A stretch of DNA of 32,852 nt from an uncultured beta proteobacterium (GTDB lineage Bacteria > Pseudomonadota > Gammaproteobacteria > Burkholderiales > Burkholderiaceae_C): contig CAJBMJ010000442.1 in assembly GCA_903954045.1 (NCBI GenBank), positions 1-32,852 on the forward strand, read 5' to 3'. How positions within the stretch are numbered: the stretch's first letter is position 1; each line of letters begins with the position of its first letter. Shown in pieces: positions 1,746-26,249 of this stretch. The translations under genes and the position numbers were made by a program. The notes under the pieces are model-generated. The model saw only the letters and a list, made by a program, of their open reading frames with translations. It had not been told where the DNA came from and ran no database searches.

Positions 1746-1890
1746 TTGTTTCTGTCGGTCGAGGTCGCCCGGCCATCACAAACCGCTGTCCTCATGTTCG
1801 CCCCATTCCCCTCTGTCGAGGTCGCCAGTCTGGTGAATGTGTCGTTCATTTCCAGGCGTGCCTTCCTGCCTTGGTCAGTGGAGGTGCCCT

Positions 1891-6056: not shown

Positions 6057-6234
6057 CCGTCTATTCGTGACCGGTAGGTAACGCGAAAACTCTGACAATA
6101 CCCTTGATTTAACACTGGTTAAACTAAGTCTAATTCAGTGAAAGTATTCGCGCTTTGCGGCGGCGGAAGTCTTGCTCTGTACAACCACCCGGACTGTGGG
6201 AACTGGAGGGGCCGGGGATTTGAAAAGAAACACC

Positions 6235-8322
6235 ATGTCCAACAACCGCATCACCCGCCTTACGCACAGGCTGTTTGTCTGCGCGCTCGCCACCCTGCTT
6301 TCATGTTCTTTAGCCCATGCAGCAACGATCACGGTAACCAGCACTGCGGACAGCGGGGCCGGGTCACTCCGCCAAGCCATTGCAGATGCCGCTGCCAACG
6401 ACACCATTGCCTTCAGCGGCAACGGCACGATTACATTGGCAAGTGAACTCGCCGTCAACAAAAACCTGAGCTTTGTTGGCAATGGCGTGGGCAACACCAT
6501 CATTGATGGTAACAACAGCGTGCGGCTATTCAGCGTAGATCGAAACATCACGGTAAGCTGGGCCGACATGACCCTGACCCGGGGACGCGCTAACGATGGC
6601 GGCTGTATATATGCCCTCAACCCATCTGTGGTGACCCTGACACGTGTGACCGCCAATGCATGTGCCGCAATTCTTAATCTTGGCGGCGCGATTCATGGTT
6701 ATTCAGTTAATTTGACGGACAGCACTATTAGCGGCAATAGCGCAACGTCCTGGGGCGGTGGCATTTTTGCCTTCGGTGATCTCATGGTATCCAATTCGAC
6801 GATCACAGCCAACAGCGTCGGAGCTCGAGGGGGTGGAATTTATTTCCAGCCAAGTTCTGGTAATGCGCTCACCATTCTTCATAGCACAATTTCTGGGAAT
6901 ACTGCGTCTGAAGGCGGTGGTATCTATGTTTTTCTTGCTCCTCCAATTTCCATCGGTCACACGGTACTTGCGGGTAACAACGCCAGCATATCCTCTCCCG
7001 ATGCGTATGGACCATTTGCCTCGACCGGTTACAACGTGATCGGCAATACCACTGGAATGACCATCACTGGCACCACAACAGGAAACATCATCAACGGTGC
7101 AGCTTCACCGCTCAGCCTCGGCCCATTGGCCGACAACGGTGGCCCCACCAAAACCATGGCGATCGGCGTGGACAGCGTGGCCTATAACGCGGGTGACCCT
7201 TCCTTTTCCGGATCACCGAGCACCGACCAGCGCGGCACAGCGCGGGTGAAGATGGGGCGCATCGACATTGGTGCGTACGAGAGCAGTGACCCCGTTGTTG
7301 CCATCACGCCGTCCACCCTCAACATTGCAGAGGGTTCTTCGGCCAACGTCACCCTCACGCGCACCGGCAGCACCGCGAGCGCACTCACCGTCAACCTGAG
7401 CATCACTCAGGGCACGGGTATCACAGGTGCTGACTACACCTTGTCGGGCGCATCCATCAGCGGCCAGAGCGGCAGCGTTACCGCCACCATTCCTGCAGGC
7501 AATTCCTCGGTCAATATCGCCGTGGCGGCTCAGAATGATGTGATACAAGAGTCCAGCGAAGTGCTCACGCTGACACTGGTTGACGCCCTCAGCTACGACT
7601 TGGGAGCCACCACGTCCAGCGCGGCCACACTGCTGGACAATGATTTTGTTCTGACGGTGACTACTGCTGGCACTGGAAGCGGCACCGTCGGTGGCAGCGC
7701 CGCCGGTACTTACAACGCGGGGAGCGCACTGACCCTGACCGCGACACCCGATACCGGCAGCACATTTTCTGGCTGGAGCACGGGTTGCAGTGCGTCGTTC
7801 AATATGCCATCCAGCGATCTGACCTGTACGGCGACCTTTGTACCGGCGACCACTTCGCGGTCTAGCATTTCGACAATTTCTAGCGGCGTGACTGCCACGT
7901 TGTCGGCAGCGGGTTGTAGTGCCGTTGACAGTGCAACTTTCATCGCGCCACCTGCCGGTGCGCCAAGCAACACGAGCTTCCCCTATGGATTGCTGGACTT
8001 CACCTTGAGTGGCTGCGCTGGCAGTGCGACAGTAACCGTGACCTACTCGCAGAACCTGCCAAGCGGTGCTACTTTCTACAAAATCAGAACAGGGACGTAT
8101 CAGACGTATACGGCCTCCGTGGGATTCAACAGCGTGACCTTCACACTGACAGACAACGATTCATGGGACGGCGATGGAGGGGCTGGTGTCATCAAGGACC
8201 CAGGCGGACTCGGATTTGGCAGCACCACCAGTATCCCAACCCTGTCTGAGTGGGGCATGATCATTCTGTCAGCGCTGCTTGCCCTGGGGTCATTCGGAGT
8301 TATGCGGCGCAGGCAGGTCTGA
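6235..8322 (+). CDS. IPTL-CTERM surface protein with beta-helix, Calx-beta-like and anchor U-like domains
   Basis: Predicted 695-aa exported protein. A signal peptide (MSNNRIT...SCSLAHA, about 29 residues) is followed by a parallel beta-helix region (about 30-300, repeated G-G-G-I-Y and S-T-I-S-G-N turns). Then come a choice-of-anchor Q-like NGGPTKTMA segment (~302), a Calx-beta-like domain (about 352-470), a small GWSTGC domain and a choice-of-anchor U-like domain (about 545-660). It ends with IPTLSEWG, a hydrophobic helix and MRRRQV. The layout implies export, proteolytic sorting at the C-terminus and surface display. Beta-helix proteins of this kind often act as adhesins or polysaccharide-binding proteins, but nothing here identifies the partner. 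The start at 6235 is preferred over 6172 because it gives a clean signal peptide, with AAAAGAAA upstream. Confidence 0.88.
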   Translation: MSNNRITRLTHRLFVCALATLLSCSLAHAATITVTSTADSGAGSLRQAIADAAANDTIAFSGNGTITLASELAVNKNLSFVGNGVGNTIIDGNNSVRLFSVDRNITVSWADMTLTRGRANDGGCIYALNPSVVTLTRVTANACAAILNLGGAIHGYSVNLTDSTISGNSATSWGGGIFAFGDLMVSNSTITANSVGARGGGIYFQPSSGNALTILHSTISGNTASEGGGIYVFLAPPISIGHTVLAGNNASISSPDAYGPFASTGYNVIGNTTGMTITGTTTGNIINGAASPLSLGPLADNGGPTKTMAIGVDSVAYNAGDPSFSGSPSTDQRGTARVKMGRIDIGAYESSDPVVAITPSTLNIAEGSSANVTLTRTGSTASALTVNLSITQGTGITGADYTLSGASISGQSGSVTATIPAGNSSVNIAVAAQNDVIQESSEVLTLTLVDALSYDLGATTSSAATLLDNDFVLTVTTAGTGSGTVGGSAAGTYNAGSALTLTATPDTGSTFSGWSTGCSASFNMPSSDLTCTATFVPATTSRSSISTISSGVTATLSAAGCSAVDSATFIAPPAGAPSNTSFPYGLLDFTLSGCAGSATVTVTYSQNLPSGATFYKIRTGTYQTYTASVGFNSVTFTLTDNDSWDGDGGAGVIKDPGGLGFGSTTSIPTLSEWGMIILSALLALGSFGVMRRRQV

Positions 8323-8373: not shown

Positions 8374-8406
8374 ACAAAAAAAGAAACCCGACACATGGGC
8401 CGGGTT
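8374..8406 (-). terminator. Intrinsic terminator for the leftward gene ending at 8607
   Basis: On the minus strand AACCCG (8406-8401) pairs with CGGGTT (8390-8385) across a 10-nt loop, followed by a T-rich run (complement of the A-run 8376-8384). It lies about 200 bp beyond the stop of the leftward IPTL-CTERM gene. Confidence 0.65.
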
Positions 8407-8606
8407 GGAATCCTATTTGCGTCACACATCTAGGACCTGCTCAGGGAGGTAAAGCAGGAGGCTTGCGCCTGTAGGGAATTGTAGGATATTCGACTAAATC
8501 AGTGGGGTTGACTTGCAGACTTGATCTCATACCAGCATCCCCAACATCTTCGCTTAGAAAGCTCCTGTGCTTGGCAGCAAATACGATCTCGCCTCTAGCC
8601 CATTGA

Positions 8607-9563
8607 TCATCGTCGTGCAGCCCTAACCCGCGTCCATCCAATCAAAAGCATCAATAAAACCAACAATAGCTTACCCCACTCAGAGAGTGTAGGTATGCCG
8701 TTGATTTGGGTGACAGCAATGGTGCGATCGACATCTGGAGCAGCAAGAAAATTTGAGTCACCGATCTGGCTGGCACGGACCACGCAATTACCAGCCCCGG
8801 TCAATGTAAGTGTTGAGTTGGCAAGCGAACAAGGGCCGGAAACTACTGAGAACGTTACTGGGCTCGTTGAGCCACCGCCATTTGCAGAGAGGGTTAGTAC
8901 ATCACCCACAACTCCAGTACTCGGGGGATTGAAGGTAATGGCCTGACTTGATAACCAGATCGGATTATTGGTGTAACTCCATGCTTGCTGAATTAGGCTG
9001 TCGTTGCCAAGCAATACCTTTAGCCAAAGTTTAGATCCGTTCTCTCCTGGAAATTCAGCGCAAATGAAAGAATTCGGTGATGTGCTGAACGATCCGCTAT
9101 AGGCGGCATTCTCACACGTGCCGGGATCATTGTTGCCATCGATGCTTCCCACGCGGTAGGCCCAGAAGTTAAAGGTCCCCAACACATTGATCACGGTGGG
9201 GTTTGCTGGGCCAATAAGGCCAAAATGTGGTGTGGGTGTATCGGTGACTCTGATTGCCAATGAAATAAAACGTGCTGTTGCTGGTGTCAATATTTGCCAT
9301 CCACCGCAACCTGAACGGTATTCGGTGCTGGTACTGATCAAATCAGGACACGCTCTGACCTCACTTTTCGCGACGTTGCACAGAACAAGCCCGAAAAATA
9401 GCGTGGCGAGAATTCTTATAAATACAGGCACACGGGATTTGATTACGGTAACTGGACTGGCTTTTCGAATGGCGCCTAGCATCGGCAACCCAAAGGCTTG
9501 CGATGTTTCCCCAGACGCCATCGTGCAAACCAAATTTTGACGAGTGTATTCCTCGCTGCGCAT
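8607..9563 (-). CDS. IPTL-CTERM surface protein with Ig-like domain, leftward
   Basis: Predicted 318-aa protein and the only IPTL-CTERM gene here on the minus strand. A hydrophobic segment near residues 46-62 should drive export. The central part (about 65-205) is unrecognised, with Cys residues suggesting disulfides. An Ig-like module (about 205-285, ITFNPPSTGVVGD...TLTLTGAGNCVVRASQ) precedes IPTLSEWG, a hydrophobic helix and a basic tail (TRVRAARR). Unlike its neighbours it has no choice-of-anchor U domain. GGGAGA lies a few bases before the ATG at 9563, which supports that start, although a downstream ATG at 9482 would give a more typical signal peptide. It is the smallest of the cluster and is flanked on its 5' side by decayed DNA. 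Confidence 0.82.
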   Translation of the reverse strand: MRSEEYTRQNLVCTMASGETSQAFGLPMLGAIRKASPVTVIKSRVPVFIRILATLFFGLVLCNVAKSEVRACPDLISTSTEYRSGCGGWQILTPATARFISLAIRVTDTPTPHFGLIGPANPTVINVLGTFNFWAYRVGSIDGNNDPGTCENAAYSGSFSTSPNSFICAEFPGENGSKLWLKVLLGNDSLIQQAWSYTNNPIWLSSQAITFNPPSTGVVGDVLTLSANGGGSTSPVTFSVVSGPCSLANSTLTLTGAGNCVVRASQIGDSNFLAAPDVDRTIAVTQINGIPTLSEWGKLLLVLLMLLIGWTRVRAARR

Positions 9564-10625: not shown

Positions 10626-10837
10626 GGTGACATTGAGTGACGACTGGTTTCCGTTAAAGCAATTCCAAACTTCGTTTTACGCGTAAATTGGCTCGCATGT
10701 GGCTCAATGGGTTTATCAGTCAATCCTTAGCAACACCCCGTCCAAATGGACGGGTGACTGGGCTGGCGCAAACCAATAACATCATTCAACGCCTTACCTG
10801 TAAATTTACGCCCAGTTTTTCTCAAAATGGCCTCACG

Positions 10838-13800
10838 ATGAAATCCGCTTCTCGCACTGCTGGTCTAGCCGCCTTCCTACTGCACTCAGGCCCCTCCCGC
10901 CGTATTTCGCTGTGGTTGGCCAGTGCATTTGCCCATCTAATGGTCGTTGCCTTGCTTTCACCTGCCACGGCTGCACCGCTGGTCATTAGTGATGGCGCGA
11001 CGGTCACGCTATCAACAAACACCAGCGGAACAGCAGGAACCAACGGTGTGACAGGTGCTACTGGCGCGGGCGGATCGGCAGGCGCAGACGGTAGCGTGGG
11101 CGCCACAGGGGCAGTCGGTGCCGCAGGCGTCGCAGGCACGAGCGGCACCGCAGGAAGCCCTAGCGGCAGTGGAGGTGCCAGCGGTGGAGTTGGCGGCACC
11201 GGTGCCACGGGTGGAAGCGGACTGACAGGTAGTAGCGGGGGCGCGGGGGGGTGGGGCGCGACAGGTACGGTGGGCGTCGAGGCCGTGAGCTACTCCGGTG
11301 TGGGGACTACCACTGCGGTACTCACCAACAGCGCGACGATTGAGGGCGGCAGTGGAGGACAAGGCGGAACCGGAGGCACGGGCGGCACAGGCGGGCAAGG
11401 CGGCAACGGCGCGACGGGCGGGTCCGGTGGCGTTGGAGGCCAAGGTGGTTCAGGTGGAGCTGGCTACAGCAACAATTCTGGCAATGGTGGCAATGGCGGT
11501 GCCGGTGGCAACGGTGGGGCGCCCGGTGCGGGTGGAGCCGGTGGCAATGGCGGTGTCGGTGGCAATGGCGGTGTCGGCGGCGCCGGTAGCACCGGTGGCA
11601 TTGGTGCAACCGGCATCCGCCAAGATGCAGGCAGTCTGCGCGTAATGAATCAGGGCAACCTATACGGCGGCGCGGGTGGGGCAGGCGGTACTGCCGGTGC
11701 TGGGGGAGCCGGCGGGACTGGGGGCACTGCCGGTGGTGGGGGCGCGGGCGGCCCGCTTGGTGGAGCCGGTGGAGCCGGTGGCGCCGGCGGCGCAGGGGGC
11801 AGCGATTCCAACTACATCGGATCTTCTACCGGTGGCAGTGGCGGCGCAGGTGGTCAGGGATTTAGCGGTGGCAATGGTGGACCCGGAGGGAGCGGCGGGT
11901 CGGCATATGCATTCGGTAACTTCGTGACGGCTGAAGGTGGCGCCGGCGGAATTGGGGGGCAGGGAGCGAACGGTGGTGCGGCTGGTTTTGGGGGTAGTGC
12001 TTCCGCGCAAGGAAATGATGTTACAGCAAACGGCGGGATGGGCGGGATGGGCGGGATGGGCAGTACTTCCGGAAACGGAGGGGCCGGTGGAAACGGAGGT
12101 GGCGCGAATTCGGCAGGGGTTCGTCCACGTGCCACCGGTGGCGCCGGCGGTAGCGGTGGCAGTGGCGGTGCCGGTGGTAGCGGCGGGTTAGCAGGCACCG
12201 CTAGCGCAATAGGGATCGACACCATTACCAATGCTGGTTCGGCTGGTGCAGCTGGGGCAACAGGCGGTTTCGCACCGACGACGTCGCCCGGTGCAAATGG
12301 TACGGCGGGCAACGGAGGGGGAGGCGGCTCGGCAGGAGGGTCGGGGTCAACCGGTAACACCGGAAACGGTGGTGCAGCGATCCTGAGTCAGGCTGGCAGC
12401 GTCCGTCTTGAAGTTCTCAACACTGGGGCAGGCATCATTCGTGGCGGAAGCGGCCTCAACGGTGGTGCGGGCATCCAATCGGCAGCCAGCACGCTTGTCA
12501 TCGAGAACCTTGCCGGCGGCAGCATTCTAGGTGGCGTCGGCAGCAATGCCTATGGCATTGACGTCACCGGCGGTATTCTCACCAGTCTGTCCAACACCGG
12601 AACCATCAGCGGAACTGGCAATGGCGCCGGGATTCACAATGCGGGCGCTATCACCACACTGACCAACCGGCAGGATGGCCTGTCCTACACCGGCACCGCT
12701 CCCGCCAACTATTACGTCGACATTGCCGGAACTACTGCGGGTCAGTATGGCACGTTGATAGTGAAGGACTCCCCCAACTGGAATATCAGTGCATTGAATT
12801 TTGGGGTTGCTTCCGGCTCGACCTTGGCCGAAGGCGTAATCTACCAAGATGTGATCCAGGGAAGCGGGACGACCAGTTTTAACAGCACGGCAAGCAAGAC
12901 TGGCAGCTTTGTTGCAGGCGGCACGACCTACAACTATTCTCTGGTCTATGACGGTAACAGTTGGGACCTGACGCTGGTCGGCATCTACACCGTCACCTTC
13001 GATGCCAACGGCGGAAGCGGCAGCATGAGCACGCAGAGTGGCAGCTACAACACCACCGCAGCGCTGACCAACAATGCTTTCACCCGCACCGGCTATACCT
13101 TTGCGGGCTGGAATGCGGTTCAAGGCGGAGGCGGTGCAGCCTATGCCAATGGTGGAAACTACACATTTACGGCCAGCAACACGCTGTACGCCCAGTGGAA
13201 CATCAACAGCTATGCCGTCACCCCCAACGCAGGCGCTGGCGGAAGCATCAGTCCCAGCGGCGCGCAAACAGTAAATCACGGTGGAACCACCAGCTTTACC
13301 GTCACACCCAATACGGGATACAGCATAGCCAGCGTGACGGGTTGCAGCGGCAATCTGAACGGAAATACCTACACCACAGCAGCAGTAACCGGGGCCTGCG
13401 CGGTGAGCGCAACCTTTAGTGCAAACACATCGGTCACCGGCTCCACCGCCGGTGGCTCGGTCACGGCAGCCATCACCGGCGGCACTTGCGCTGGTTTTGT
13501 CACTGGCAGTACCCAGTTTGCAGCGGGTAGCAATGCACCGGCAGGCCAGACCTTCCCCTACGGCAGCTTTGGCTTTACTGCCACGGGGTGCGGCACCAGT
13601 GGAGGCAGTGTGACGATCACCCTGAACTATCCGCAGGGCCTGCCAGCACAACCCAAGTTCTACAAACTTATCAGCGGCAACTGGGTGGATTGGACTAGCC
13701 GGGCTACCTTTGGCGCGAACACGGTGCAGTACACGGTGCAGGACAACCAATTGGGCGACAGCGATCCGGCAGCCGGCGTCATCACTGACCCGGTGGCGCT

Positions 13801-13936
13801 AGCGGCACCTGCCGAACTGGCCAGCATTCCTACGCTCAATGAATGGGCGTTGATGCTGCTGGCGAGCTTGATGTTGATGCTGGGGATGTGGCAGGTGCAG
13901 CGCCGTTCTGTCGTTGCCGGGGCGATGGAAATTTAA
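10838..13936 (+). CDS. Large glycine-rich IPTL-CTERM surface protein
   Basis: Predicted 1032-aa protein. A long signal sequence (about 46 residues, ending SPATAA) leads into a ~460-residue glycine-rich region (about 60-520) built of short G-G-X and G-A-X units, resembling PE_PGRS or collagen-like sequence. A less repetitive beta-rich part follows (520-710), then a Listeria-Bacteroides-type repeat (about 716-788, VTFDANGG...GYTFAGWN...LYAQWN), a second small repeat domain with GYSIASVTGCSG, and a choice-of-anchor U-like domain (about 885-988). The C-terminal signal is a variant, IPTLNEWA, then a hydrophobic helix and VQRRS. It should be exported and surface-attached. The low-complexity part could be a structural or adhesive stalk. 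The start is uncertain: ATG at 10838 gives the best signal peptide but has no clear ribosome-binding site; the frame is open from 10688. Confidence 0.85.
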   Translation: MKSASRTAGLAAFLLHSGPSRRISLWLASAFAHLMVVALLSPATAAPLVISDGATVTLSTNTSGTAGTNGVTGATGAGGSAGADGSVGATGAVGAAGVAGTSGTAGSPSGSGGASGGVGGTGATGGSGLTGSSGGAGGWGATGTVGVEAVSYSGVGTTTAVLTNSATIEGGSGGQGGTGGTGGTGGQGGNGATGGSGGVGGQGGSGGAGYSNNSGNGGNGGAGGNGGAPGAGGAGGNGGVGGNGGVGGAGSTGGIGATGIRQDAGSLRVMNQGNLYGGAGGAGGTAGAGGAGGTGGTAGGGGAGGPLGGAGGAGGAGGAGGSDSNYIGSSTGGSGGAGGQGFSGGNGGPGGSGGSAYAFGNFVTAEGGAGGIGGQGANGGAAGFGGSASAQGNDVTANGGMGGMGGMGSTSGNGGAGGNGGGANSAGVRPRATGGAGGSGGSGGAGGSGGLAGTASAIGIDTITNAGSAGAAGATGGFAPTTSPGANGTAGNGGGGGSAGGSGSTGNTGNGGAAILSQAGSVRLEVLNTGAGIIRGGSGLNGGAGIQSAASTLVIENLAGGSILGGVGSNAYGIDVTGGILTSLSNTGTISGTGNGAGIHNAGAITTLTNRQDGLSYTGTAPANYYVDIAGTTAGQYGTLIVKDSPNWNISALNFGVASGSTLAEGVIYQDVIQGSGTTSFNSTASKTGSFVAGGTTYNYSLVYDGNSWDLTLVGIYTVTFDANGGSGSMSTQSGSYNTTAALTNNAFTRTGYTFAGWNAVQGGGGAAYANGGNYTFTASNTLYAQWNINSYAVTPNAGAGGSISPSGAQTVNHGGTTSFTVTPNTGYSIASVTGCSGNLNGNTYTTAAVTGACAVSATFSANTSVTGSTAGGSVTAAITGGTCAGFVTGSTQFAAGSNAPAGQTFPYGSFGFTATGCGTSGGSVTITLNYPQGLPAQPKFYKLISGNWVDWTSRATFGANTVQYTVQDNQLGDSDPAAGVITDPVALAAPAELASIPTLNEWALMLLASLMLMLGMWQVQRRSVVAGAMEI
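11010..12390 (+). repeat. Glycine-rich low-complexity coding tract
   Basis: About 1.4 kb of GGC/GGT/GGN-dense codons encoding G-G-X units, with local near-identical blocks (GGTGGCAATGGCGGTGTCGG recurs around 11548-11580, and GGGATGGGC three times at 12035-12060). The tract produces long spurious frames on both strands. Confidence 0.85.
13210..13920 (+). repeat. Duplicated 3' segment, copy 1 (copy 2 at 16480-17170)
   Basis: The last ~700 bp of the 10838 and 13951 genes are close to identical over long runs, covering the GYSIASVTGCSG domain, the choice-of-anchor U-like domain and the sorting signal. The 5' parts of the genes are unrelated. Confidence 0.85.
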
Positions 13937-13950
13937 TAGAGAGAGACTTC

Positions 13951-16900
13951 ATGATGACCATCTTGTCCGACCGACTGCCTTCCTGGAAAAGCCTTGTTTT
14001 TGCTGTCGTCTGCCTGAACGCCTCGTTCATCGCCTGCGCTCAGAACATCACTGCGTTTAGCGGGGGCGGGCAACGTGCCCAGGTTGGCACAGCGTTTTCC
14101 AATCCGTTCGTGGCTGTGGTAACCAACACGAGTGGCGTACCCCAATCCGGACAGTCGGTTACTTTTTCCGGTTCGGGTCTGGATACCAATTACACCTACA
14201 CCGCCACGACAGACGCCAATGGCCGCGCATCCCTGGCGCTTTATGCAAACGCCACGGCTGGCGCTTACACGGTCACGGCAATACTCAACGGCGCCCATTC
14301 GGCCATGGCCACGTTCGGTGCGCGTCAGGGCACCAATGCCAGCTGTACTGCAAATATTTCCGTCACAAGCGGGAACGATGCGGGAGCGGGCACGTTGCGC
14401 GAGGCTGTCAACGAGGTGTGCGCTGGCGGGACGATTGATCTGACGCCATTGACATGTGGCAGCACCGTCACCCTGGCGAGTCGCCTGTATCTGGCGTCAG
14501 ATGTGACGATCAAAGGGCCGCCGAGCTGTGGCACCCCCGTAACGATCAGCGGCAACAATGTCACGCGACAATTTTTTGTTCAAGGTGGAGACGTCACGCT
14601 GCAGGACCTGACCCTGGCCAACGGGCGTGGTGCCGGTGGCAATGCAAGCCAAGCGGGCGCGGGTGCGGGCATGGGTGGTGCCATTTTTCAGAACGGTGGA
14701 CATCTGCGGCTGGTGAACGTAGCGCTGAATAGTAATGTGGCTCAGGGTGGCGGATGGGACGGCGGCACCGGCGCACCCGGCGGAGGCGGTTTTGGAGGTG
14801 ACGCCGTAGTGCTGCAGACCCAGGAGGCTTACGGTACTGGCGCTAACGGTGGCGATCTGGGAGGGGCTGGCGGCACTTATCCTAGATGGGTCTGTGGTGA
14901 CCGCAACGGTGGAGACGGTGGGGGCGGGGCGGCGGGCTCACTTTACTGCGGTGGTCAGGCCGACGGCGGGGCGGGGGGCTTCGGTGGTGGTGGTGGCAGT
15001 AGCAGTGGCGGTGGCACTTACTATGGCGGACGTGGCGGATTTGGCGGAGGCGGGGCCGCCGGAAACAATGCATTCCAATCCAGTAACGGTGGTTGGGGCG
15101 CCAACAAGGGGACCGGTTTGCCCAGTGGAACTGGTGCGGCAGCCGGGTTTGGGGGCGCAATTTTTGCGCGCAGAGGGCTGCTAGACCTGAGCAATGTCAG
15201 CTTTACCAGCAACGCGGCCTATGGGGGACGAAGCAACCCCAATTCTATGTACACCCAATACTACGGTCAGGGCAAGGGCGGGGCCTTGTTCGTCTATGAC
15301 GGTGCCCTGGTCAACGCGAGCAATGTCAGTTACTCGGGCAATATTGCGGCTGATGCCGGGGTGGCGGGTATTGGTGAGTCGCCCGCGCCGTACACCTTTG
15401 GCAGCACCTGTCCGGGAAGCGACACCGTTAACCTGTGCGGTACCGTCGTTATTGGCGGCAGTGTGGGGAGTGGCCATGTGCTGAACCTGACTGTGCAGGG
15501 CAGCGGAAGCGGAAGCGTCAGCTCGGGTGTGGTCGCTTTGAATGAAATCAATTGCCCGGGCATGTGCTCCAAATTCGGGAACGGCTCGGTGACGCTGACC
15601 GCCACTGCAGCGGATGGCAGCATGTTCACGGGGTGGGGTGGGGCGTGTAGCGGCACCGGGACATGTACCGTGTCCCTGGCGAGCGCGGATCAGGCAGTTA
15701 CAGCTACCTTTATTCCTGGCTTCACCCGCATTGGCAACGACGGCAACCCGACGAGCAGTACCACGCTGGGTACTGGCCCGACCGACTGGGCCTGTACACG
15801 CGATAACGCCACCGGCTTGGTCTGGGAGGTCAAGACGACCAGCGGGCTGCGCAGCCAGACTACGACCTATACCAACTACGACAGCAGTTACGGCACAACC
15901 GCGCAGATCAACGCCGCCACCAACAGCATGGGCTTTGCCAATGCGGTCAACGACACCGCCTTGTGCGGCTCGGCGCAGTGGCGTATGCCAACCGTGGCTG
16001 AACTGCAGGGCATCGTCAAGGCGGGAGCCACAAACCCGGCGATCGATACGACGTATTTTCCGAATACGCCTAGTTCGTACTTTTGGTCGGGTTCGCCCAG
16101 TATCATGAGCTACGCGTGGAACGTGAACTTTGGCGACGGAGTTGCCGCCAGCGGCGGCGTCCGCGACAGCGGCAGCGTTGCCGTTCGCCTTGTGCGTGGC
16201 GGACAGTCTTTTGCCACTTCTGCGCTTGACGTCACTGTGACCGGTGGTGGCGCGGGCAGTGTGACCACGGGCAACATCAACTGCACCCGCTCGGGCGGCA
16301 GCACCAGCGGCACCTGTTCCGAGGGCCGCGGCACCAACAGTGTGGTCACCCTCACAGCCACGCCAGTTACGGGCAGCACCTTTGCGGGCTGGGGCGGAGC
16401 CTGCAGCGGCAGTGCCAGCACTTGCAGCATCACCATGGATGCAGCCAAAGCAGTGTCGGCCAGTTTCAACCTCAACACCTACACCGTCACCCCCAGCGCA
16501 GTCACCGGCGGCACCATCAGCCCCAGCGGCGCACAAACCGTGAGCCACGGTGGAACCACCAGCTTTACCGTGTCGCCTAGCCCGGGTTACAGCATTGCCA
16601 GCGTCACGGGTTGCAGCGGTAACCTGAGTGGCAACACCTACACCACAGGGGCGATTACGGGCGCGTGCATCGTCAACGCCACGTTCAGTGCCAACACATC
16701 GGTGACCGGCTCTACAGCCGGTGGCTCGGTCACGGCAGCCATCACCGGCGGCACCTGCGCCGGTTTTGTCACCGGTAGCACCCAGTTTGCAGCGGGAAGC
16801 AATGCACCGGCAGGCCAGGCGTTTCCCTACGGAACCTTTGGGTTTACCGCTACGGGCTGCGGAAGCGGTAGTGGAAGCGTCACCATCACCCTGACGTATC

Positions 16901-17196
16901 CGCAAGCTCTCCCAGCACAACCCAAGTTCTACAAACTTATCAGCGGCAACTGGGTGGACTGGGCTAGCCGGGCTACCTTTGGTGCGAACACGGTGCAGTA
17001 CACCGTGCAAGACAACCAGGAGGGCGACAGCGATCCAGCCAACGGTGTGATCACAGACCCGGTGGCACTTGCAGCTCCTGCGGCGCTCACCAGCATCCCA
17101 ACCTTGAGCGAATGGGGTCTGATGCTGTTAGCGGGAATGATGTTGATGTTGGGGATGCGGCAGGCGCAGCGCAGAGTGGAGCGAGCATGCTCCTAG
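13951..17196 (+). CDS. Large IPTL-CTERM surface protein with Ig-like, beta-helix and DUF1566-like domains
   Basis: Predicted 1081-aa protein starting 15 bp after the previous stop, so probably co-transcribed. AGAGAGA lies upstream of the ATG at 13951. A signal peptide (to about residue 31, ...FIACA) is followed by an invasin-type Ig-like domain (about 33-128, PQSGQSVTFSG...TTDANGRASLAL), a beta-helix region with glycine-rich loops (about 138-520), a small GWGGACSGTGTC repeat, and a DUF1566/Lcl-like domain (about 590-750, ATGLVWEVKT...WRMPTVAELQGIV...YFWSGSP...VRLVRGG). Then come another GWGGACSGSASTC repeat, the shared GYSIASVTGCSG and choice-of-anchor U-like domains, and IPTLSEWG with helix and basic tail. 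DUF1566 modules occur in many secreted bacterial proteins, and some are lectin-like. The architecture suggests a surface adhesin; the ligand is unknown. Confidence 0.87.
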   Translation: MMTILSDRLPSWKSLVFAVVCLNASFIACAQNITAFSGGGQRAQVGTAFSNPFVAVVTNTSGVPQSGQSVTFSGSGLDTNYTYTATTDANGRASLALYANATAGAYTVTAILNGAHSAMATFGARQGTNASCTANISVTSGNDAGAGTLREAVNEVCAGGTIDLTPLTCGSTVTLASRLYLASDVTIKGPPSCGTPVTISGNNVTRQFFVQGGDVTLQDLTLANGRGAGGNASQAGAGAGMGGAIFQNGGHLRLVNVALNSNVAQGGGWDGGTGAPGGGGFGGDAVVLQTQEAYGTGANGGDLGGAGGTYPRWVCGDRNGGDGGGGAAGSLYCGGQADGGAGGFGGGGGSSSGGGTYYGGRGGFGGGGAAGNNAFQSSNGGWGANKGTGLPSGTGAAAGFGGAIFARRGLLDLSNVSFTSNAAYGGRSNPNSMYTQYYGQGKGGALFVYDGALVNASNVSYSGNIAADAGVAGIGESPAPYTFGSTCPGSDTVNLCGTVVIGGSVGSGHVLNLTVQGSGSGSVSSGVVALNEINCPGMCSKFGNGSVTLTATAADGSMFTGWGGACSGTGTCTVSLASADQAVTATFIPGFTRIGNDGNPTSSTTLGTGPTDWACTRDNATGLVWEVKTTSGLRSQTTTYTNYDSSYGTTAQINAATNSMGFANAVNDTALCGSAQWRMPTVAELQGIVKAGATNPAIDTTYFPNTPSSYFWSGSPSIMSYAWNVNFGDGVAASGGVRDSGSVAVRLVRGGQSFATSALDVTVTGGGAGSVTTGNINCTRSGGSTSGTCSEGRGTNSVVTLTATPVTGSTFAGWGGACSGSASTCSITMDAAKAVSASFNLNTYTVTPSAVTGGTISPSGAQTVSHGGTTSFTVSPSPGYSIASVTGCSGNLSGNTYTTGAITGACIVNATFSANTSVTGSTAGGSVTAAITGGTCAGFVTGSTQFAAGSNAPAGQAFPYGTFGFTATGCGSGSGSVTITLTYPQALPAQPKFYKLISGNWVDWASRATFGANTVQYTVQDNQEGDSDPANGVITDPVALAAPAALTSIPTLSEWGLMLLAGMMLMLGMRQAQRRVERACS
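16480..17170 (+). repeat. Duplicated 3' segment, copy 2 (copy 1 at 13210-13920)
   Basis: Matches copy 1 in the same frame and order. Long stretches, such as that around 16920-17010, are nearly identical at nucleotide level, including synonymous positions. This implies recent duplication or gene conversion. Confidence 0.85.
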
Positions 17197-17423
17197 CTCT
17201 GGATGGCATAAAGAACAGGTTTCAGGAAGCCAATAAATGTCGACTTTTTGGCGGCCAATCAACAGGTCGATAAGACGGAAATGGGTCGCCAGGAGCCTTC
17301 CAATCTGCACCCCCATTCCAGTTCTGCGCCCCCAACCTCCCTAAATTTCGCTGCTCAAAAAACAAGCACTCTTTCAGCCCACCCCGCCGCAACCCGCATA
17401 AACACTAGGGTTTGGTACCCCAC

Positions 17424-17450
17424 TTGACAAAGCGGGGGTCGATTTGTCAA
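17424..17450. promoter_or_regulatory. Putative operator, inverted repeat copy 1
   Basis: TTGACAAAGCG (17424-17434), five bases, CGATTTGTCAA (17440-17450): 10 of 11 positions pair. The same element with the same flanks (CAC before, TCTGGTT after) recurs at 19971-19997. It ends 30 bp before the ATG of the 669-aa gene. Confidence 0.75.
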
Positions 17451-17480
17451 TCTGGTTTCACACATAAAGGAACCATAGAC

Positions 17481-19490
17481 ATGACAAATAATCAAAACCC
17501 ACAGGGAACCAAAACCCAGACCCACACGGACCAATCAACTCCGTCAAACATCGCGGCGACCCAGCTTGCAACGGTTGCATCTACATCCGCCCGGCAATTG
17601 GACTTGAAACAACTCCAGACCTGGATGACCCGCGACTGCGCAGCCCAACTCCGTCAATTGGCAAAACACCAATGCGAGGTTCAGTTGGAATTCGTCGAAG
17701 ACACCGACACCTTAGAACCCATTCCAACCATTGGTATGGTGCACACGCCCAGCGCAGGCAAACCTAAGGACCCCCATCCAGCATTGGCACGCTGGCAAGT
17801 TCGCAGTGCCGTGTCGTACGTTGATGCCATCGACTCCATGGAAAAAGCCCAGGTCTTACTGCTCGATAGGTTGGAGCGCATGGTCCAGATTGCACCCGGC
17901 TTGGTGGCTTTCAGCAAGGTATTGGGCAAGTTGGACACTCAGAGCAAAGTCACTTGTGCCACAGCATTCATGCCCGACTTCAGCCCTGGTGTGATGGACC
18001 CCAGCGGAATGGAGCTGGTCTTGCAGCGTCTGGTACAAGAGCCGCTTGCCGATGATTTCGAAGGCAAGCGCTCCACACGCGAATGGATTTCCCTGGAAGA
18101 ATGGCTATCCGTTTGGATGAAGCTCTACCACAGGGAGTTGAAGTCCTTCAACCCTGTGGCAGGACGGCACTTTGTGGAACGTATCCGCAAGAACAGACCC
18201 GACCCCCAACAGCAGGCATTTCATTTCAAAGACAGGGATGCGACCTACAAGGGGACATGGAAATACTTCACCCGCAACAAGAAACCCATGGCCCAAGTCA
18301 AAGGCACAGTTCATGTTCCGATTGCCTGCCTGAACCCATGCAAGGATGAAGACCAGAATTTGAGCTTTTCAGGGCCAACCGTTGAACTGCACTTTGACGG
18401 GGTTGAATTTCTGTTTGACGTTGCTGCGTTCGGGTGGGACCAGACCCAGTGGAAGCCAGCCAGTATTGCTACCACCGACGCCGCTGGTGTTTTTGACTTG
18501 GATGACGACCAGTCCGACGCCAACCCCACCCCCGAGTTCAGTCCTGAAGATTTAGTCGAAGCCATTAATGCGCGCTTGTCAGCAGAACTGGCGGACGTAC
18601 TGGCAGATTTCCGGGCGGACGGATTGTGCGAAGTCTTGGCCATGCAAACGTCTCGCCCGTCCGGTTCACGGGGAAGGAATGCCGCAAATCAGTCAAATCT
18701 GGCGCTGGTCTTCTATGTGAACTCTGCTCAACCAGTCACTTACCACGCGGTGTACAAAGGTCCCGAATATCCCTGGGCAATGTGCCAGGTGATGGAGTCG
18801 GTGACATCCATGCAGGATTTTGAGCGTGCATTTGAATCAGTGGTTCACCGCTTACCCAAGATTCGCAGCAGTTTGCTGGGGCTCCAAAATCTGTTGGGCA
18901 GCATCGATAACTACGGCACCGCCTTGACGGTAGATGCTTTGTTGGAAAGTGCGGGTGGCTGGGTCGTCGATAACGGCGGGATGGGCTTGGTGGCGGGCAA
19001 ACATGTGCGAAGCAATTACGTTCGCATTTGGGACGATTGGACCCTACCCATCAGTGGCTCTACCGAGAACTACTTGGCACGTTGGTGCGATTCTGTAGCC
19101 ACCGTCAAGTTAGAGAGCACCCCAGAACCAGCTGGTGAGTTTTTGGACTATCTGGAATTCGACGAAGACGGCTCCTGGCTGTCGAAGTGGGCTGACAGAA
19201 CCATTCAGGGGACTTGGGCCTACGAGGTGACGCTCGATAAGCCGCATGTGGTTTTGAGCCACCGCCTGGAGTTTGGTCTGCCTTCTTTGGATATGGATGT
19301 TAGCCATCGTGTACCCCCGGTTGCCACCTGGCGAGTGAAAGCTCAGATGGTCATCGACGGTGTAACTTTGGTGGGCAGTGATGAAGCATTGACACTACGC
19401 ATGGTCGGCAATCTTCTACCCACTGCCGAACTGGACCGCAGCGTTTCATCCGGGATGGTGGAGGAGATTGAAGCGGAGATTTTTGGATAA
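17481..19490 (+). CDS. Uncharacterised 669-aa protein, first gene of an unknown three-gene module
   Basis: I do not recognise this family. The protein appears soluble and acidic, with no signal peptide or membrane segment. The N-terminal ~40 residues are Gln/Thr/Ser-rich and probably disordered. An Asp-rich linker (FDLDDDQSD) lies near residue 335. The C-terminal part is related to the 341-aa protein encoded at 20023: VTS-(M/I)-xxF...VV.RLP.IR..L..L...LG.IDN, then EP...EFL....D.DG.W, then a final W.....DG.TL stretch. AAGGA lies 9-10 nt before the ATG at 17481, which fixes the start; an in-frame start at 17412 would overlap the operator. The shared inverted-repeat operator and proximity to the integrase suggest an element-encoded function, such as maintenance, defence or control, but the sequence does not say which. 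Confidence 0.7.
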   Translation: MTNNQNPQGTKTQTHTDQSTPSNIAATQLATVASTSARQLDLKQLQTWMTRDCAAQLRQLAKHQCEVQLEFVEDTDTLEPIPTIGMVHTPSAGKPKDPHPALARWQVRSAVSYVDAIDSMEKAQVLLLDRLERMVQIAPGLVAFSKVLGKLDTQSKVTCATAFMPDFSPGVMDPSGMELVLQRLVQEPLADDFEGKRSTREWISLEEWLSVWMKLYHRELKSFNPVAGRHFVERIRKNRPDPQQQAFHFKDRDATYKGTWKYFTRNKKPMAQVKGTVHVPIACLNPCKDEDQNLSFSGPTVELHFDGVEFLFDVAAFGWDQTQWKPASIATTDAAGVFDLDDDQSDANPTPEFSPEDLVEAINARLSAELADVLADFRADGLCEVLAMQTSRPSGSRGRNAANQSNLALVFYVNSAQPVTYHAVYKGPEYPWAMCQVMESVTSMQDFERAFESVVHRLPKIRSSLLGLQNLLGSIDNYGTALTVDALLESAGGWVVDNGGMGLVAGKHVRSNYVRIWDDWTLPISGSTENYLARWCDSVATVKLESTPEPAGEFLDYLEFDEDGSWLSKWADRTIQGTWAYEVTLDKPHVVLSHRLEFGLPSLDMDVSHRVPPVATWRVKAQMVIDGVTLVGSDEALTLRMVGNLLPTAELDRSVSSGMVEEIEAEIFG

Positions 19491-20022: not shown

Positions 20023-21048
20023 ATGCCAGCTATCAGTTCCAACAATAGACCAACCAGCCAAACCAATCCGCCTGTAAACACCCGCATATCTCAAATGCCC
20101 ATGGGCACTGCCAGAGACCCCTACATTGAAGCCCTGGATGCCCACATGCATGCCCAGTTCGCAAGCGCTGTAGGCGCATTTGAAGACGATGGGCATTGCC
20201 AGATACGTGTCATCGGATTGCATGCCTACGAAGGGGCGCCATGGTCACCTGGCTTGCTCATGAATTACCGATTGCCCAGTGGTCCCGTACCCGACGATGG
20301 ACCCCACTATTACAGACAGTGGGCGTTCCGGCTGGATTTGACGGATGTAACGTCCATCGGGCTGTTTCCTTCGGCCATGGCGATGGTCGTTCCCAGGCTG
20401 CCCAGCATTCGGCAAACTTTGATTGCCTTGCACCAAACCCTTGGATATATCGACAACCTTTACAACGAGGAAGCCTTCGAATCCCAAATCCGGGAGGATT
20501 ACCCCACGTTGACTGACGACTCTGGGCTCCAGTTTCTGTTGTGTCCGGTCAATGATGCCACCCAAGACCACACGCGATTGATACCGACCGACCCTGTGAC
20601 CGATGGGGGCATGGAAGATTGGATGTCGGACTGGTGCGTCTTTGCCCAGCATATGAAGACACAGGGCGAACCGGTACTGACGAGGGAATTTTTGGCATCA
20701 ATCCAACTGGCAGATACGGACGGCAACTGGTTCAGTGCCTATGGCAAGGAGATGCGTTTTATCCGACCACACCTGGAAGCACTGCCGGGTGGTCCTGTGC
20801 TGGTGATGGAGATGCAGACCAACCACTATTTGCCAATCTTCGACCTGGCGAGTCGGTTTCAGGAACGTGGGGGCATGTGGCCCCGCTTGGGACTCAAATT
20901 TGCGGATGCCGGGACGTTGGGGATGGAGCCGGGCTTATTTATGGCAGGGGTGAACATGGGGTGCAATCCGTTGCTGGTGAGTGCAAGACGGGACGCCGAG
21001 ATGGTCGCGGCCGCCACTGGGATTGGCGGGGATGTGTTTTGTGAGTGA
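20023..21048 (+). CDS. Uncharacterised 341-aa protein, paralogue of the 669-aa protein
   Basis: The family is not recognised. The protein is soluble, with a disordered N-terminus (about 1-30) and no signal peptide. It aligns by eye with the C-terminal half of the 669-aa protein: VTSIGLF...VVPRLPSIR..L..L...LGYIDN (about 107-147), then WMSDWC...EPVLTREFL...DTDGNW (about 200-238), then W...L.F.DAGTL (about 285-302). GGGAG upstream of the ATG at 20023 supports the start. It is controlled by the same inverted repeat as its paralogue. It is followed by the convergent integrase gene, with about 110 bp between the stops. Confidence 0.7.
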   Translation: MPAISSNNRPTSQTNPPVNTRISQMPMGTARDPYIEALDAHMHAQFASAVGAFEDDGHCQIRVIGLHAYEGAPWSPGLLMNYRLPSGPVPDDGPHYYRQWAFRLDLTDVTSIGLFPSAMAMVVPRLPSIRQTLIALHQTLGYIDNLYNEEAFESQIREDYPTLTDDSGLQFLLCPVNDATQDHTRLIPTDPVTDGGMEDWMSDWCVFAQHMKTQGEPVLTREFLASIQLADTDGNWFSAYGKEMRFIRPHLEALPGGPVLVMEMQTNHYLPIFDLASRFQERGGMWPRLGLKFADAGTLGMEPGLFMAGVNMGCNPLLVSARRDAEMVAAATGIGGDVFCE

Positions 21049-21159: not shown

Positions 21160-22494
21160 TTAACGGAAAGCTTCATCAACAGAGGGGAGGGTGCGAACTT
21201 CCTCCACGAACTTTTTTGCGTCGGCAAGTCCTAGTACCTTGGTCAATGCGCTGATGCCCCGGTGCCGTACAGATCCGGAGTGCTCCACGAGCAGGGCATA
21301 GAGCTCTTCAACCTGGACGTCGAAATAGCGTCTATTCAGAACATCCAGACTCTTGTGGCCGGTTAGGCGACTTAACTCCATCGGGTTGTTGACCTTCTTG
21401 GAAAGATCCTTGGTGGCAATTTTTCTCAATGAGTGGAAAGTCAGTTTTTTAATTGGGGGGTCAGCTTTGGCACATGCAATAGAAAACGCACCTGTGACAG
21501 AGTTGATAGTGTTGGAAAAAATGAGCCCAGATTTCGTGGGGCTTGCTTCATAGAGCGGACGCAGTATGTCTTGCATCTCCGGTGTAAGAGGCACGGCACG
21601 GCCCAGGGATTGGGTCACACTTTTCGTGTGATCGTTTTTTTCTCGGGGCAGGGTAAGGATATTGTTGGCCCAGTCGATATCCTCCCAGCGCATACCGCCT
21701 GATTGTTCGCCGGTTATCTTGTCCTTTGCGCCTTGAACGATTTCGCTTCGACGAAAAGCCATCGCTAATGACAGCTTAACGATAGGAATCATCCAGGGAG
21801 AGTGCGCCTGGAGGGCTGCGATCAGGCGCTCGTACTCATTTCCAGACCATGACCGCTGCACATTGTTCTTGGGTTTGGGTAAGGAAATCCCGCTGGGTGG
21901 GTTGTCTACGGGATAAAGCCATTCATTGGCGGCATGGGAGTACAACGAGGTCAGAACGGTGAAGTAGTTGCGTACCGACGAAGCGGAATATTTTTCTTCC
22001 AGCAGCTTGTCTCGAAGTAGGATGTAGTCCTTCTTTTTCAGGTCGCGAAGTAGCTTGTTTTCTCCCAGCCACTCCGACAAATGATTCACCCGGTGTCCGA
22101 CCTCTCTAAACGAACTCTTTCCGGCGTAATGTTGGCCATGAAAACGCTTGAGTGCCTGTTTGATCGTGATGGTTTCGTATTCGGCAACAAAGCCACCGTG
22201 CTTGGTGCGAATTTTCTTGATTTCTTCCTCTTGAGACTTCGCCCAAGCATTTGCATTGTCAAGGGTGTCATGCGTGGCGGTTCTGACAACCAGATTTCCA
22301 TCGGCGTCTGACAACTTGATTTGCACCTCGAATGCTGTTTCCAGTTGCCTGAGGGCATTTTTCGGAAGGTTATGTGGGTCTGCATGCCCCTGACTGGCCA
22401 GGTAGGCAAGCGCTTTGGATTTGAGTCGGAACTTTTGCTCTGCCTGACCTTTTAGCTTGACTTGCCAGGGTGATCGGTTTGTGATGTTCGCCAT
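21160..22494 (-). CDS. int: Tyrosine recombinase (phage-type integrase) of the island
   Basis: Predicted 444-aa site-specific recombinase. The catalytic domain shows R248 (MAFRRSE), H354 and R357 (FHSLRK), H380 (LTGHKS) and the nucleophile Y390 (RRYFDV). The N-terminal ~200 residues would be the arm- and core-binding domains, including a SAM-like part around 110-195. It reads leftward, starting 200 bp inside the right boundary, beside the tRNA-Leu fragment that it presumably uses as target. It would integrate and, with a directionality factor, excise the element. The start at 22494 (MANITNRSPW) has AAGG ten bases upstream; the frame is open to 22518. No excisionase gene was recognised. It appears intact. 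Confidence 0.93.
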   Translation of the reverse strand: MANITNRSPWQVKLKGQAEQKFRLKSKALAYLASQGHADPHNLPKNALRQLETAFEVQIKLSDADGNLVVRTATHDTLDNANAWAKSQEEEIKKIRTKHGGFVAEYETITIKQALKRFHGQHYAGKSSFREVGHRVNHLSEWLGENKLLRDLKKKDYILLRDKLLEEKYSASSVRNYFTVLTSLYSHAANEWLYPVDNPPSGISLPKPKNNVQRSWSGNEYERLIAALQAHSPWMIPIVKLSLAMAFRRSEIVQGAKDKITGEQSGGMRWEDIDWANNILTLPREKNDHTKSVTQSLGRAVPLTPEMQDILRPLYEASPTKSGLIFSNTINSVTGAFSIACAKADPPIKKLTFHSLRKIATKDLSKKVNNPMELSRLTGHKSLDVLNRRYFDVQVEELYALLVEHSGSVRHRGISALTKVLGLADAKKFVEEVRTLPSVDEAFR

Positions 22495-22567
22495 GTCACA
22501 CATGCCTTCATGCAACACCCCGCCAAATTGAATTCGCGATGCTCACCGGAGGGCGGTATCTCCATTT

Positions 22568-22581
22568 CGAAAAATTTTTCG
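22568..22581. repeat. 14-bp palindrome CGAAAAATTTTTCG upstream of the integrase
   Basis: A perfect AT-rich palindrome 75 bp upstream of the integrase start, between it and the attachment site. It could be a regulator or bending-protein site. Confidence 0.5.
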
Positions 22582-22597
22582 TTTGACATTGTGACCG

Positions 22598-22621
22598 AGT
22601 TTGGGAAATAGTTTGGGAAAG
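22598..22621. repeat. Tandem 12-bp direct repeat AGTTTGGGAAA(T/G), candidate integrase arm sites
   Basis: AGTTTGGGAAAT (22598-22609) is followed directly by AGTTTGGGAAAG (22610-22621), about 70 bp from the attachment core. Short direct repeats in this position are typical of integrase or excisionase arm-type binding sites. Confidence 0.5.
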
Positions 22622-22693
22622 GTTAAAAATCACTATGAAAATTTCCAGTTTCTCCAATGAAAACGCAATTTTTATTTATGGAACAAATTTGGG

Positions 22694-22748
22694 TTTAGGT
22701 CCTGTCGGTAGCAATACTGTGCTGGTTCGAGTCCAGTCGGTCGCACCA
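22694..22748 (+). repeat. attR: 3' half of a tRNA-Leu(UAG) gene
   Basis: From the anticodon loop onward the sequence folds as a class II tRNA: loop TTTAGGT with anticodon UAG (22694-22700), 3' anticodon strand CCTGT, long variable arm CGGTA-GCAA-TACTG (22706-22719), T-arm GCTGG-TTCGAGT-CCAGT (22721-22737), acceptor strand CGGTCGC, A, CCA (to 22748). The bases before 22694 do not pair with the anticodon strand, so the tRNA identity ends exactly there and this is not a functional gene. It marks the right junction of the island; the intact tRNA should lie at the left junction, outside the window. Confidence 0.88.
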
Positions 22749-22758
22749 CCCTGAAATG

Positions 22759-22796
22759 GCTGAAACCCCAATGAAATCAAAGGTTTCGGCCTTTTT
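22759..22796 (+). terminator. Intrinsic terminator of the original tRNA-Leu gene
   Basis: GCTGAAACC (22759-22767) pairs with GGTTTCGGC (22782-22790) with one G-T wobble, followed by CTTTTT. It sits 10 bp after the CCA and probably belonged to the tRNA before integration. Confidence 0.75.
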
Positions 22797-22891
22797 CAGT
22801 ACCCAAGCTTGATTTCCAGCGCCAGCAAGGCTATTCTTGAGCCGGGCGAATGCCTCGCGCAATGAAAGCGTGCCCTGCACTCAGGGACTAA

Positions 22892-22914
22892 CCCGGCCTT
22901 ACCGCCGGGTTTTT
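22892..22914 (+). terminator. Intrinsic terminator CCCGGC-N6-GCCGGG-T5
   Basis: A perfect 6-bp GC stem (22892-22897 with 22904-22909) followed by five T on the plus strand. No plus-strand gene ends just upstream. The 90 bp between the two terminators show no gene. Confidence 0.7.
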
Positions 22915-22925
22915 CGTTTGTATCC

Positions 22926-23348
22926 TCATTCGCTAGTTGGATTGATGTCGCAACCCTCAATGCGTCTGACAAATTGAGGCCAAAGTCTCCAAAGTACAAC
23001 GGAAACCACCAAACCGGAAACAGTGTCAACCAGCCAATCAGTGATTGCCGCAGTTCGGTAAGGGAAGAAACTTTGGACGTATTCATCCAGAGCACCCATT
23101 GCCGCAACCGTTAGGATCGCAGTGAATGCACGCCTGGACGCCGCCCCAAAAGTGCCCACAAAAATCAGTGTGCTGATGACTGCGTAGGCAACCGAGTGCA
23201 AAACCAAGCCGGTCGCATAGTTGGCAATGTCCTGCCTAGCTCCGGGAATTGAGCCCACTGCCAAGATGAGCAGGTAAAAAAATATTCCTGCCCTGAAGCA
23301 AAAATGCTGAAAACCAGGGGAAATCAATGCTTTCGGCGAGATTCGCAT
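22926..23348 (-). CDS. VanZ-like membrane protein
   Basis: Predicted 140-aa protein with about four hydrophobic segments (near residues 18-36, 46-66, 72-90 and 108-122). It carries the VanZ-family signature around residues 85-115: DEYVQSFFPYRTAAITDWLVDTVSG, equivalent to the family's DE..Q.F.P.R....D...N..G pattern. VanZ was named for low-level teicoplanin resistance, but most members are uncharacterised inner-membrane proteins, and resistance should not be assumed here. It is the first gene on the chromosomal side of the island junction and reads toward it. No clear ribosome-binding site precedes the ATG at 23348. Confidence 0.8.
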   Translation of the reverse strand: MRISPKALISPGFQHFCFRAGIFFYLLILAVGSIPGARQDIANYATGLVLHSVAYAVISTLIFVGTFGAASRRAFTAILTVAAMGALDEYVQSFFPYRTAAITDWLVDTVSGLVVSVVLWRLWPQFVRRIEGCDINPTSE

Positions 23349-23458: not shown

Positions 23459-23535
23459 TGGGGTGGCTGATGGGGCTCGAACCCACGACAACAGGAATCA
23501 CAATCCTGGACTCTACCAACTGAGCTACAGCCACC
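23459..23535 (-). tRNA. tRNA-His(GUG)
   Basis: A 77-nt cloverleaf. It starts with the extra G-1, which pairs with C73. The acceptor strands are GTGGCTG and CAGCCAC, the D-arm contains AGCTCAGTTGGTAGAG, and the anticodon loop is TTGTGAT with GTG. The T-arm is GTGGG-TTCGAGC-CCCAT, and CCA is encoded. Closely resembles the E. coli tRNA-His. Confidence 0.96.
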
Positions 23536-25787: not shown

Positions 25788-26249
25788 TTACAGGTGTTCT
25801 GGAGTTTGGACCGTCACAATATTCGTTTGAGCAACTTGATCCCGCTCACGATAGCGAAGCCACCAAATGGCTCCCTTTTTTACAGCGCACTCTCCCTCGC
25901 CAATACCTGTCAATCGTGCGATCACCCTGCCTAAAGTAGGTTGATGGCCTACAACGACATAACAGCCTTTTGCATGCGGCCATTGCACTAGGCTGAGTAA
26001 GTCATCTGCATTGGACAAGGGGGCCAGGGCCGAGCTGGATTTGTATTTCCTTCCCAAAGCCCTTGCTGTTTGATCCGCACGAACTGCCGTACTCGACAGG
26101 ACTTTGGCACCGTCTGGCAATTGACGGTCGAGCCACGCTGCCATACGCGCCGCTTGCTTTTCACCTCTGGGCGTGAGCGTACGCTCCATGTCGTCCCCCA
26201 CAAGTTCCAGGTCGATGGCCTCTGCATGCCGCCACAAAATCAAATCCAT
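25788..26249 (-). CDS. sixA: SixA-type histidine phosphatase
   Basis: Predicted 153-aa member of the histidine phosphatase superfamily, short SixA type. The catalytic motif is a variant RHA (R7, H8) rather than RHG, as usual for SixA. R57 in SSTAVRADQTA and H102 in VVVGHQPTLG complete the phosphate pocket. E. coli SixA removes phosphate from histidine phosphotransfer proteins, including the nitrogen PTS protein NPr. It lies 12 bp downstream of ppk1 in the same direction, a pairing that suggests co-expression under phosphate control. Confidence 0.88.
   Translation of the reverse strand: MDLILWRHAEAIDLELVGDDMERTLTPRGEKQAARMAAWLDRQLPDGAKVLSSTAVRADQTARALGRKYKSSSALAPLSNADDLLSLVQWPHAKGCYVVVGHQPTLGRVIARLTGIGEGECAVKKGAIWWLRYRERDQVAQTNIVTVQTPEHL

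Follow-up and report, generated by a model that had tools for sequence, protein, structure and literature searches.

A probable mobilizable island at the anticodon loop of tRNA-Leu(UAG) and its displaced 3' tRNA half in an uncultured beta proteobacterium

The stretch of DNA analysed here (32,852 nucleotides, hereafter the window) carries the 3' half of a leucine tRNA gene directly beside a tyrosine integrase gene. This raises the question of whether the fragment marks the end of an integrated element and, if so, where that element recombined with its host and what lies beyond it. We consider it very probable (roughly 93%) that window positions 1-22691 are the right-hand part of an integrative, relaxase-bearing (mobilizable) island at the anticodon loop of tRNA-Leu(UAG), with the 3' half of that gene displaced to 22692-22749. 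The whole island is probably at least 40 kb in size. This reading is supported by the two copies of the repeat, by sister islands of which both ends are in view, by empty sites and by a sister crossover located within TTTAGGTCCTGACG.

The tRNA fragment and its intact counterpart

No tRNA was called at 22694-22748 by ARAGORN or Rfam, and the only complete tRNA that they found in the window was the tRNA-His listed in Table 1. When the genome from which the window derives was searched with window positions 22500-22800, the stretch 22692-22749 proved identical at 58/58 positions to the minus strand of contig C494 (G000:C494:3044-3101). The C494 copy is the 3' part of an intact tRNA-Leu gene with anticodon UAG. 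The repeat is composed of GG, the 7-base loop TTTAGGT, everything from there through CCA and one C. Its core is present in two copies only in the assembly, one in the window and one on C494, and the number of matches expected by chance, with up to three mismatches allowed, is 0.00.

The window copy retains an intact variable arm and T arm and lacks the 5' half. The initial annotation had called this sequence tRNA-like only from the anticodon loop to CCA, with the class II variable arm kept and the 5' half missing, and the 58-bp identity bears this out. It had also predicted a direct repeat of about 55 bp starting in the loop. The repeat does begin near the loop, but it is 58 bp long, extending from 2 nt ahead of the loop to 1 nt beyond CCA. 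The sequence shared in sister islands begins only at the initial base of the loop, and the two extra G of our repeat are therefore probably a chance match. The integrase gene lies directly inside the boundary as claimed; it begins 198 bp inward of the repeat. The proposed check, a search for an intact tRNA-Leu(UAG) whose 3' half is identical, found one on the separate contig C494, with island genes after it.

Table 1. Positions of the features discussed, numbered along the window.
Feature	Position	Strand	Remark
Island interior in the window	1-22691		Relaxase, PGA_cap protein, five IPTL-CTERM proteins, unknown genes, integrase
MobQ/MobA_MobL relaxase	1837-4107	+	58-60% identical to the G604 island relaxase
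Tyrosine integrase (Phage_integrase, PF00589)	21160-22494	-	444 aa from ATG 22494
Two TTTGGGAA repeats, 12 bp apart	22600-22619	+	94 and 82 bp before the loop
attR core, right copy of the 58-bp repeat	22692-22749	+	tRNA-Leu(UAG) from anticodon loop to CCA
Anticodon loop TTTAGGT	22694-22700	+	5' limit of the sequence shared in sister islands
Stem-loop with T run	22750-22796	+	81-88% identical to the left-end terminator of sister islands
VanZ-like gene	22926-23348	-	Outside the repeat
tRNA-His	23459-23534	-	Outside the island; host flank, rearranged neighbourhood

Sister islands, empty sites and the crossover

Orthologues of the integrase are rare. Four others were found at E<=1e-30 in 401 genomes of the family (85, 82, 66 and 55% identical), with further orthologues in Acidovorax facilis (84%, from a contig scan) and in genome G604 (83.6%). 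Two other hits of the contig scan seem to repeat genomes already counted. In every orthologue examined (55-85% identical), a 3' fragment of tRNA-Leu(UAG) lies about 200 bp upstream of the integrase gene. In four of the five orthologue loci (UBA2334/G461, A. facilis, G471 and G372) the fragment is followed by tig, the trigger factor gene.

In A. facilis and G604 the intact tRNA gene and its cognate 3' fragment lie on one contig in the same orientation; in our genome they are on separate contigs. The island of A. facilis DSM 649 measures 13,064 bp from core to core, and the order is tRNA-Leu(UAG), a HTH_17 protein (54% identical to ours), ArdC (31%), relaxase (38%), integrase (84%), fragment and tig. 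The G604 island spans 20.5 kb between tRNA-Leu(UAG) and the fragment on a single 4.97-Mb chromosome contig. Its backbone consists of a HTH_17 protein (52%), ArdC (62%), p196, p401, ParB/MT-A70, RepC, relaxase (60%) and integrase (83.6%), and its cargo of sugar ABC transporter genes, named from sequence without a family search. Both sister islands have in common with ours the integrase (about 84%), the att site, the HTH_17 protein (52-54%), ArdC and the relaxase, but our cargo differs; no IPTL-CTERM protein is among the listed open reading frames of the G604 island.

Genomes without the island have the order RND, intact tRNA-Leu(UAG), tig. We rebuilt the empty site of A. facilis by joining its two flanks at the shared sequence and searched for it in 48 genomes of the genus. 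It was recovered as one continuous match in 43, split in two places in four (A. facilis, G604, G594 and G609) and absent from one. The stretches read in G594 and G609 were without this integrase. The comparison with island-free strains that had been suggested thus gave an unbroken site, as a single match, in congeners of the A. facilis sister.

Other sequences were also seen at this site. In G594 (L186, 10789-10875) and G025 (L148, 2530-2616), tRNA-Leu(UAG) is followed by neither TTTGGGA arms nor a tig leader. Because these genomes carry a different sequence after the tRNA, elements of other kinds may use the same site.

The variable arm located the crossover. The native tRNA has CCAGCAATGG in 28 of the 30 congener loci read. 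The displaced fragment of A. facilis keeps this native arm whereas its intact tRNA has GTAGCAATAC, and the crossover therefore lies 5' of the variable arm. Differences between attL, attR and attB of A. facilis confine it to the 14 bp TTTAGGTCCTGACG. This interval is the anticodon loop plus the 3' strand of its stem, and from some point within it onwards, in the 3' direction, the sequence was replaced by that of the element. The earlier claim of a crossover at the anticodon loop is upheld in this sister island, where the exchange maps to the loop or 3' stem. A crossover in the T loop is ruled out by the native variable arm of the displaced A. facilis fragment. Anticodon-loop att sites are the class of 2083 of the 3919 Islander islands (PMC4383910). 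Cleavage by the SSV1 integrase falls at the anticodon-loop edges; the loop and the palindromic stem around it correspond to the canonical core site (PMC8371274).

Extended to our genome, the tyrosine integrase would have recombined the circular form (attP) with the single tRNA-Leu(UAG) gene at its anticodon loop. The host 5' half and the element's own 3' half would then make up the functional tRNA on C494, and the former 3' half would have been pushed to the other end as the fragment at 22692-22749. The probable relic terminator described below suggests that this displaced half came from an island that preceded ours and not from the original host gene.

The right flank, the host tRNA and competing explanations

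Beyond the repeat our sequence departs from that of empty sites, in which the tig leader directly follows the tRNA. The own right flank is not tig; that gene lies on contig C340, behind a gene with a beta-lactamase-like product, and a tRNA fragment was looked for before it and none found. Positions 22750-22796 form a stem-loop (z -3.9) that is 81-88% identical to the sequence after tRNA-Leu(UAG) in G046, G031 and G022, and they are also similar to the post-tRNA sequence in G117, G093 and G055. The alignment scores of 35-61 compare with shuffle maxima of 20-23. In G031, G117 and G055 the terminator stands at a sister island's left end and is followed by arm repeats and a HTH_17-type protein, and in G046, G022 and G093 the contigs end soon after it. 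It was absent from the empty sites compared. Judged by this sequence similarity, the block probably remains from an element that was here before.

Further right, the VanZ-like gene had no match in 128 relatives (E 1e-10) in a search for the pre-insertion flank. The proximity of tRNA-His to rpmE2 was not seen in the relatives read, in which the two lie apart; in several of these relatives tRNA-His is near tRNA-Val. On these grounds, a VanZ-like gene without relatives and two neighbours that are not neighbours elsewhere, the right side is rearranged. What had been annotated as the right boundary of an island therefore stands as the island's right end, but it is probably not a clean host junction, given the probable terminator relic, the rearranged flank and the location of tig elsewhere.

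A dispersed element of about 80 nt, ending in a terminator, was also noticed in this flank (22838-22915, plus strand). Further copies lie elsewhere in the same genome and in relatives (L151, 3671-3769; L056, 1653-1734, minus strand; L039, L040 and L038), several of them near tRNA genes. They have a common fold of three hairpins and a terminator, weak covariation and only sub-threshold Rfam matches. We regard the element as a candidate small RNA family.

The state of the flank points to a refinement of the main reading towards which we incline: that the fragment is the border between two islands, the present one having inserted before an earlier element whose remainder was deleted or rearranged. 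With that order of insertion, the 3' half seen in the fragment may have come from the earlier element. The border reading is favoured by the 47 bp next to the repeat, which match the left-end terminators of G031, G117 and G055 and three contig ends, by the absence of the terminator from empty sites, by the detached tig and by the unique VanZ-like gene. Against it, a single terminator-like block is all that is left; neither arm repeats nor an integrase nor a third copy of the core comes after it, and the terminator could have reached the host lineage by another way.

Among the tRNAs detected in the genome, the tRNA-Leu(UAG) on C494 is the only one of its kind, and it differs from the common form of relatives at 11 positions. 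It still folds as a cloverleaf. Changes at positions 4, 5, 6 and 28 of the 5' half pair with changes at 80, 79, 78 and 44 of the 3' half, by which three pairs are kept and one is created. The best full-length match to the repeat among 198 relatives reached at most about 89% identity. A search for the own tRNA variant in phages and plasmids returned only distant tRNA-Leu genes, the best at 83% over the full length. The four paired changes would fit co-adaptation of host and element. A bolder extension, that successive islands rewrote this essential single-copy tRNA into a mosaic of co-adapted host and element halves, with the fragment as the border between two island generations, seems to us rather doubtful. 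Alternatively, ordinary drift of the whole tRNA-Leu(UAG) gene may explain its differences.

The two ends of our island lie on separate contigs of a 605-contig assembly, and the linkage between them is therefore drawn from synteny. Along the tRNA strand, C494 reads RND pump C-terminus, tRNA-Leu(UAG), the HTH_17 protein (274 aa; a weak match of 8.5e-6, just under the curated cut-off), an XRE regulator and, on the opposite strand at the contig end, the C-terminal part of an ArdC-like protein. Contig C452 carries the N-terminal part of ArdC, p201, p404, ParB/MT-A70, a RepC-like gene and, last, a 1083-aa IPTL-CTERM protein. The G604-type backbone thus runs from the rest of ArdC to RepC on C452 and includes the relaxase and integrase of the window. 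Together, C494, C452 and the window make up about 39.8 kb of island, and gene order across them matches the single 20.5-kb G604 island. From this order we infer that C494, C452 and window positions 1-22691 are one element. Similar repeated motifs at the contig ends L003 (1-130) and L210 (1-125) interrupt ArdC; the break is possibly an insertion sequence inside the island.

With ends on different contigs, the left end on C494 and the right end in the window could instead belong to two different islands arrayed in tandem at the same tRNA, and Islander holds 125 such arrays at tRNA genes (PMC4383910). This is improbable, as only two core copies are present in the assembly and the backbone over the three contigs follows the order of one sister island. 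Still less probable is a misassembly that joined the integrase piece to unrelated chromosome at the tRNA repeat. The assembly is fragmented, the right-flank neighbours are unusual and assemblers can err at a repeated tRNA half, but on the integrase side the conserved attP arm reaches the loop, just as it does in every relative, and the flank would need another core copy to begin in, which no other contig has. Finally, tRNA fragments can come about by other routes, but a degenerate tRNA pseudogene or chance repeat unlinked to the integrase is contradicted by the exact 58-bp identity, the fragment beside the integrase in every orthologue and the empty sites in the sister's congeners, and its likelihood is negligible.

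Attachment-site anatomy, island contents and known systems

The integrase start was set by orthologue alignment within an open frame at 21160-22518. The protein matches PF00589 (9.6e-12) and a PHROG integrase (1.5e-38), and its catalytic Arg, HxxR, His and Tyr positions are conserved in the orthologues. No match to it was returned by a PDB sequence search, nor by IMG/VR scans with the integrase and with part of the core. In plasmid searches the matches listed were 23-29% identical for the integrase and 27-32% for the relaxase, none reaching 60%.

The 7-bp loop is likely the strand-exchange region, and the integrase would be expected to cleave at its edges. In the right arm, TTTGGGA stands 94 and 82 bp before the loop in our island, in L025, L026, L030 and L028 and in A. 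facilis, and 93 and 81 bp before it in L027; several right arms have a third copy at -112. In all sister right ends the TTTGGGAA repeats recur at these distances, give or take 1 bp. In five of the six left arms read, TTTGGGA starts at +117 after CCA (our own copies are at 117, 128, 137 and 146), preceded by TTTCA-type repeats. The number of TTTGGGAA copies in the window is unremarkable (22600, 22612 and one opposite-strand copy at 26051), being reached in 16 of 100 shuffles. Their conserved position is the evidence that the TTTGGGA repeats are putative integrase arm sites. The HTH_17 protein at the left arm would be the best candidate for an excision factor, and the predicted circle junction (attP) would read GGAACAAATTTGGG-TTTAGGT-CCTGTCGG...CACCAC-TAGAAATCG. 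This arrangement resembles a lambda-type attP in its 7-bp overlap core with flanking inverted stem and in the TTTGGGA boxes at fixed distance in both arms. It differs in that no curated arm-binding domain was found in the own integrase, and the arm sites are putative.

Island insertion into a tRNA gene with restoration of the 3' half is a well-known kind of event. Sublocation classes for islands in tRNA genes were reportedly set out by Williams in 2002. Our island does not differ in principle from Islander class 'A' islands, sharing the tyrosine integrase, an intact tRNA at one end, a displaced 3' fragment at the other and the anticodon-loop crossover. In the literature searched we found no description of either the RND - tRNA-Leu(UAG) - tig locus of Burkholderiaceae/Comamonadaceae or this integrase branch. 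Exact ends are now fixed for a mobile island family in several genera of these groups; its attB is in hand, its attP arms have been deduced and one complete chromosomal copy serves as a reference. Direct tests are now possible of the island boundary, of the IPTL-CTERM cargo and of what a 3' half supplied by an element does to the only tRNA gene of its kind. The full set of comparisons, the pattern of arm sites, the tRNA with its compensated changes and what is probably left of an earlier island lend the case modest additional interest.

In gene content the island resembles integrative mobilizable elements (IMEs), with an integrase, a MobQ-type relaxase and an ArdC anti-restriction protein; the sister island and C452 each also carry RepC-like and ParB/MT-A70 genes. 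It differs from them in its cargo of IPTL-CTERM surface-sorting proteins. The relaxase matches MobA_MobL (2.1e-40) and, at 149 bits, falls under the 200-bit cut-off of the MobQ model. No other transfer genes were among the island proteins scanned, in an island that is split over contigs and may be incomplete.

A pair of proteins (17412-19490 and 20023-21048) is mutually similar (26%, E 3e-16), with no matches in Pfam, NCBIfam, PHROG or PADLOC. An analogous pair, again mutually similar (24%, E 6e-14), is present in the G604 island, and no significant match linked the two sets when they were compared. A full-text search returned a single open paper in which the term IPTL-CTERM is used. IPTL-CTERM proteins are encoded in the window at 22-1176, 6172-8322, 8607-9563, 10688-13936 and 13843-17196, and a sixth on L210 (10658-13909); five of the six have a choice-of-anchor U domain. 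Inside the island, Rfam also places an anti-hemB RNA at 8377-8461 (minus strand), at 50.5 bits just above the threshold of 49.5.
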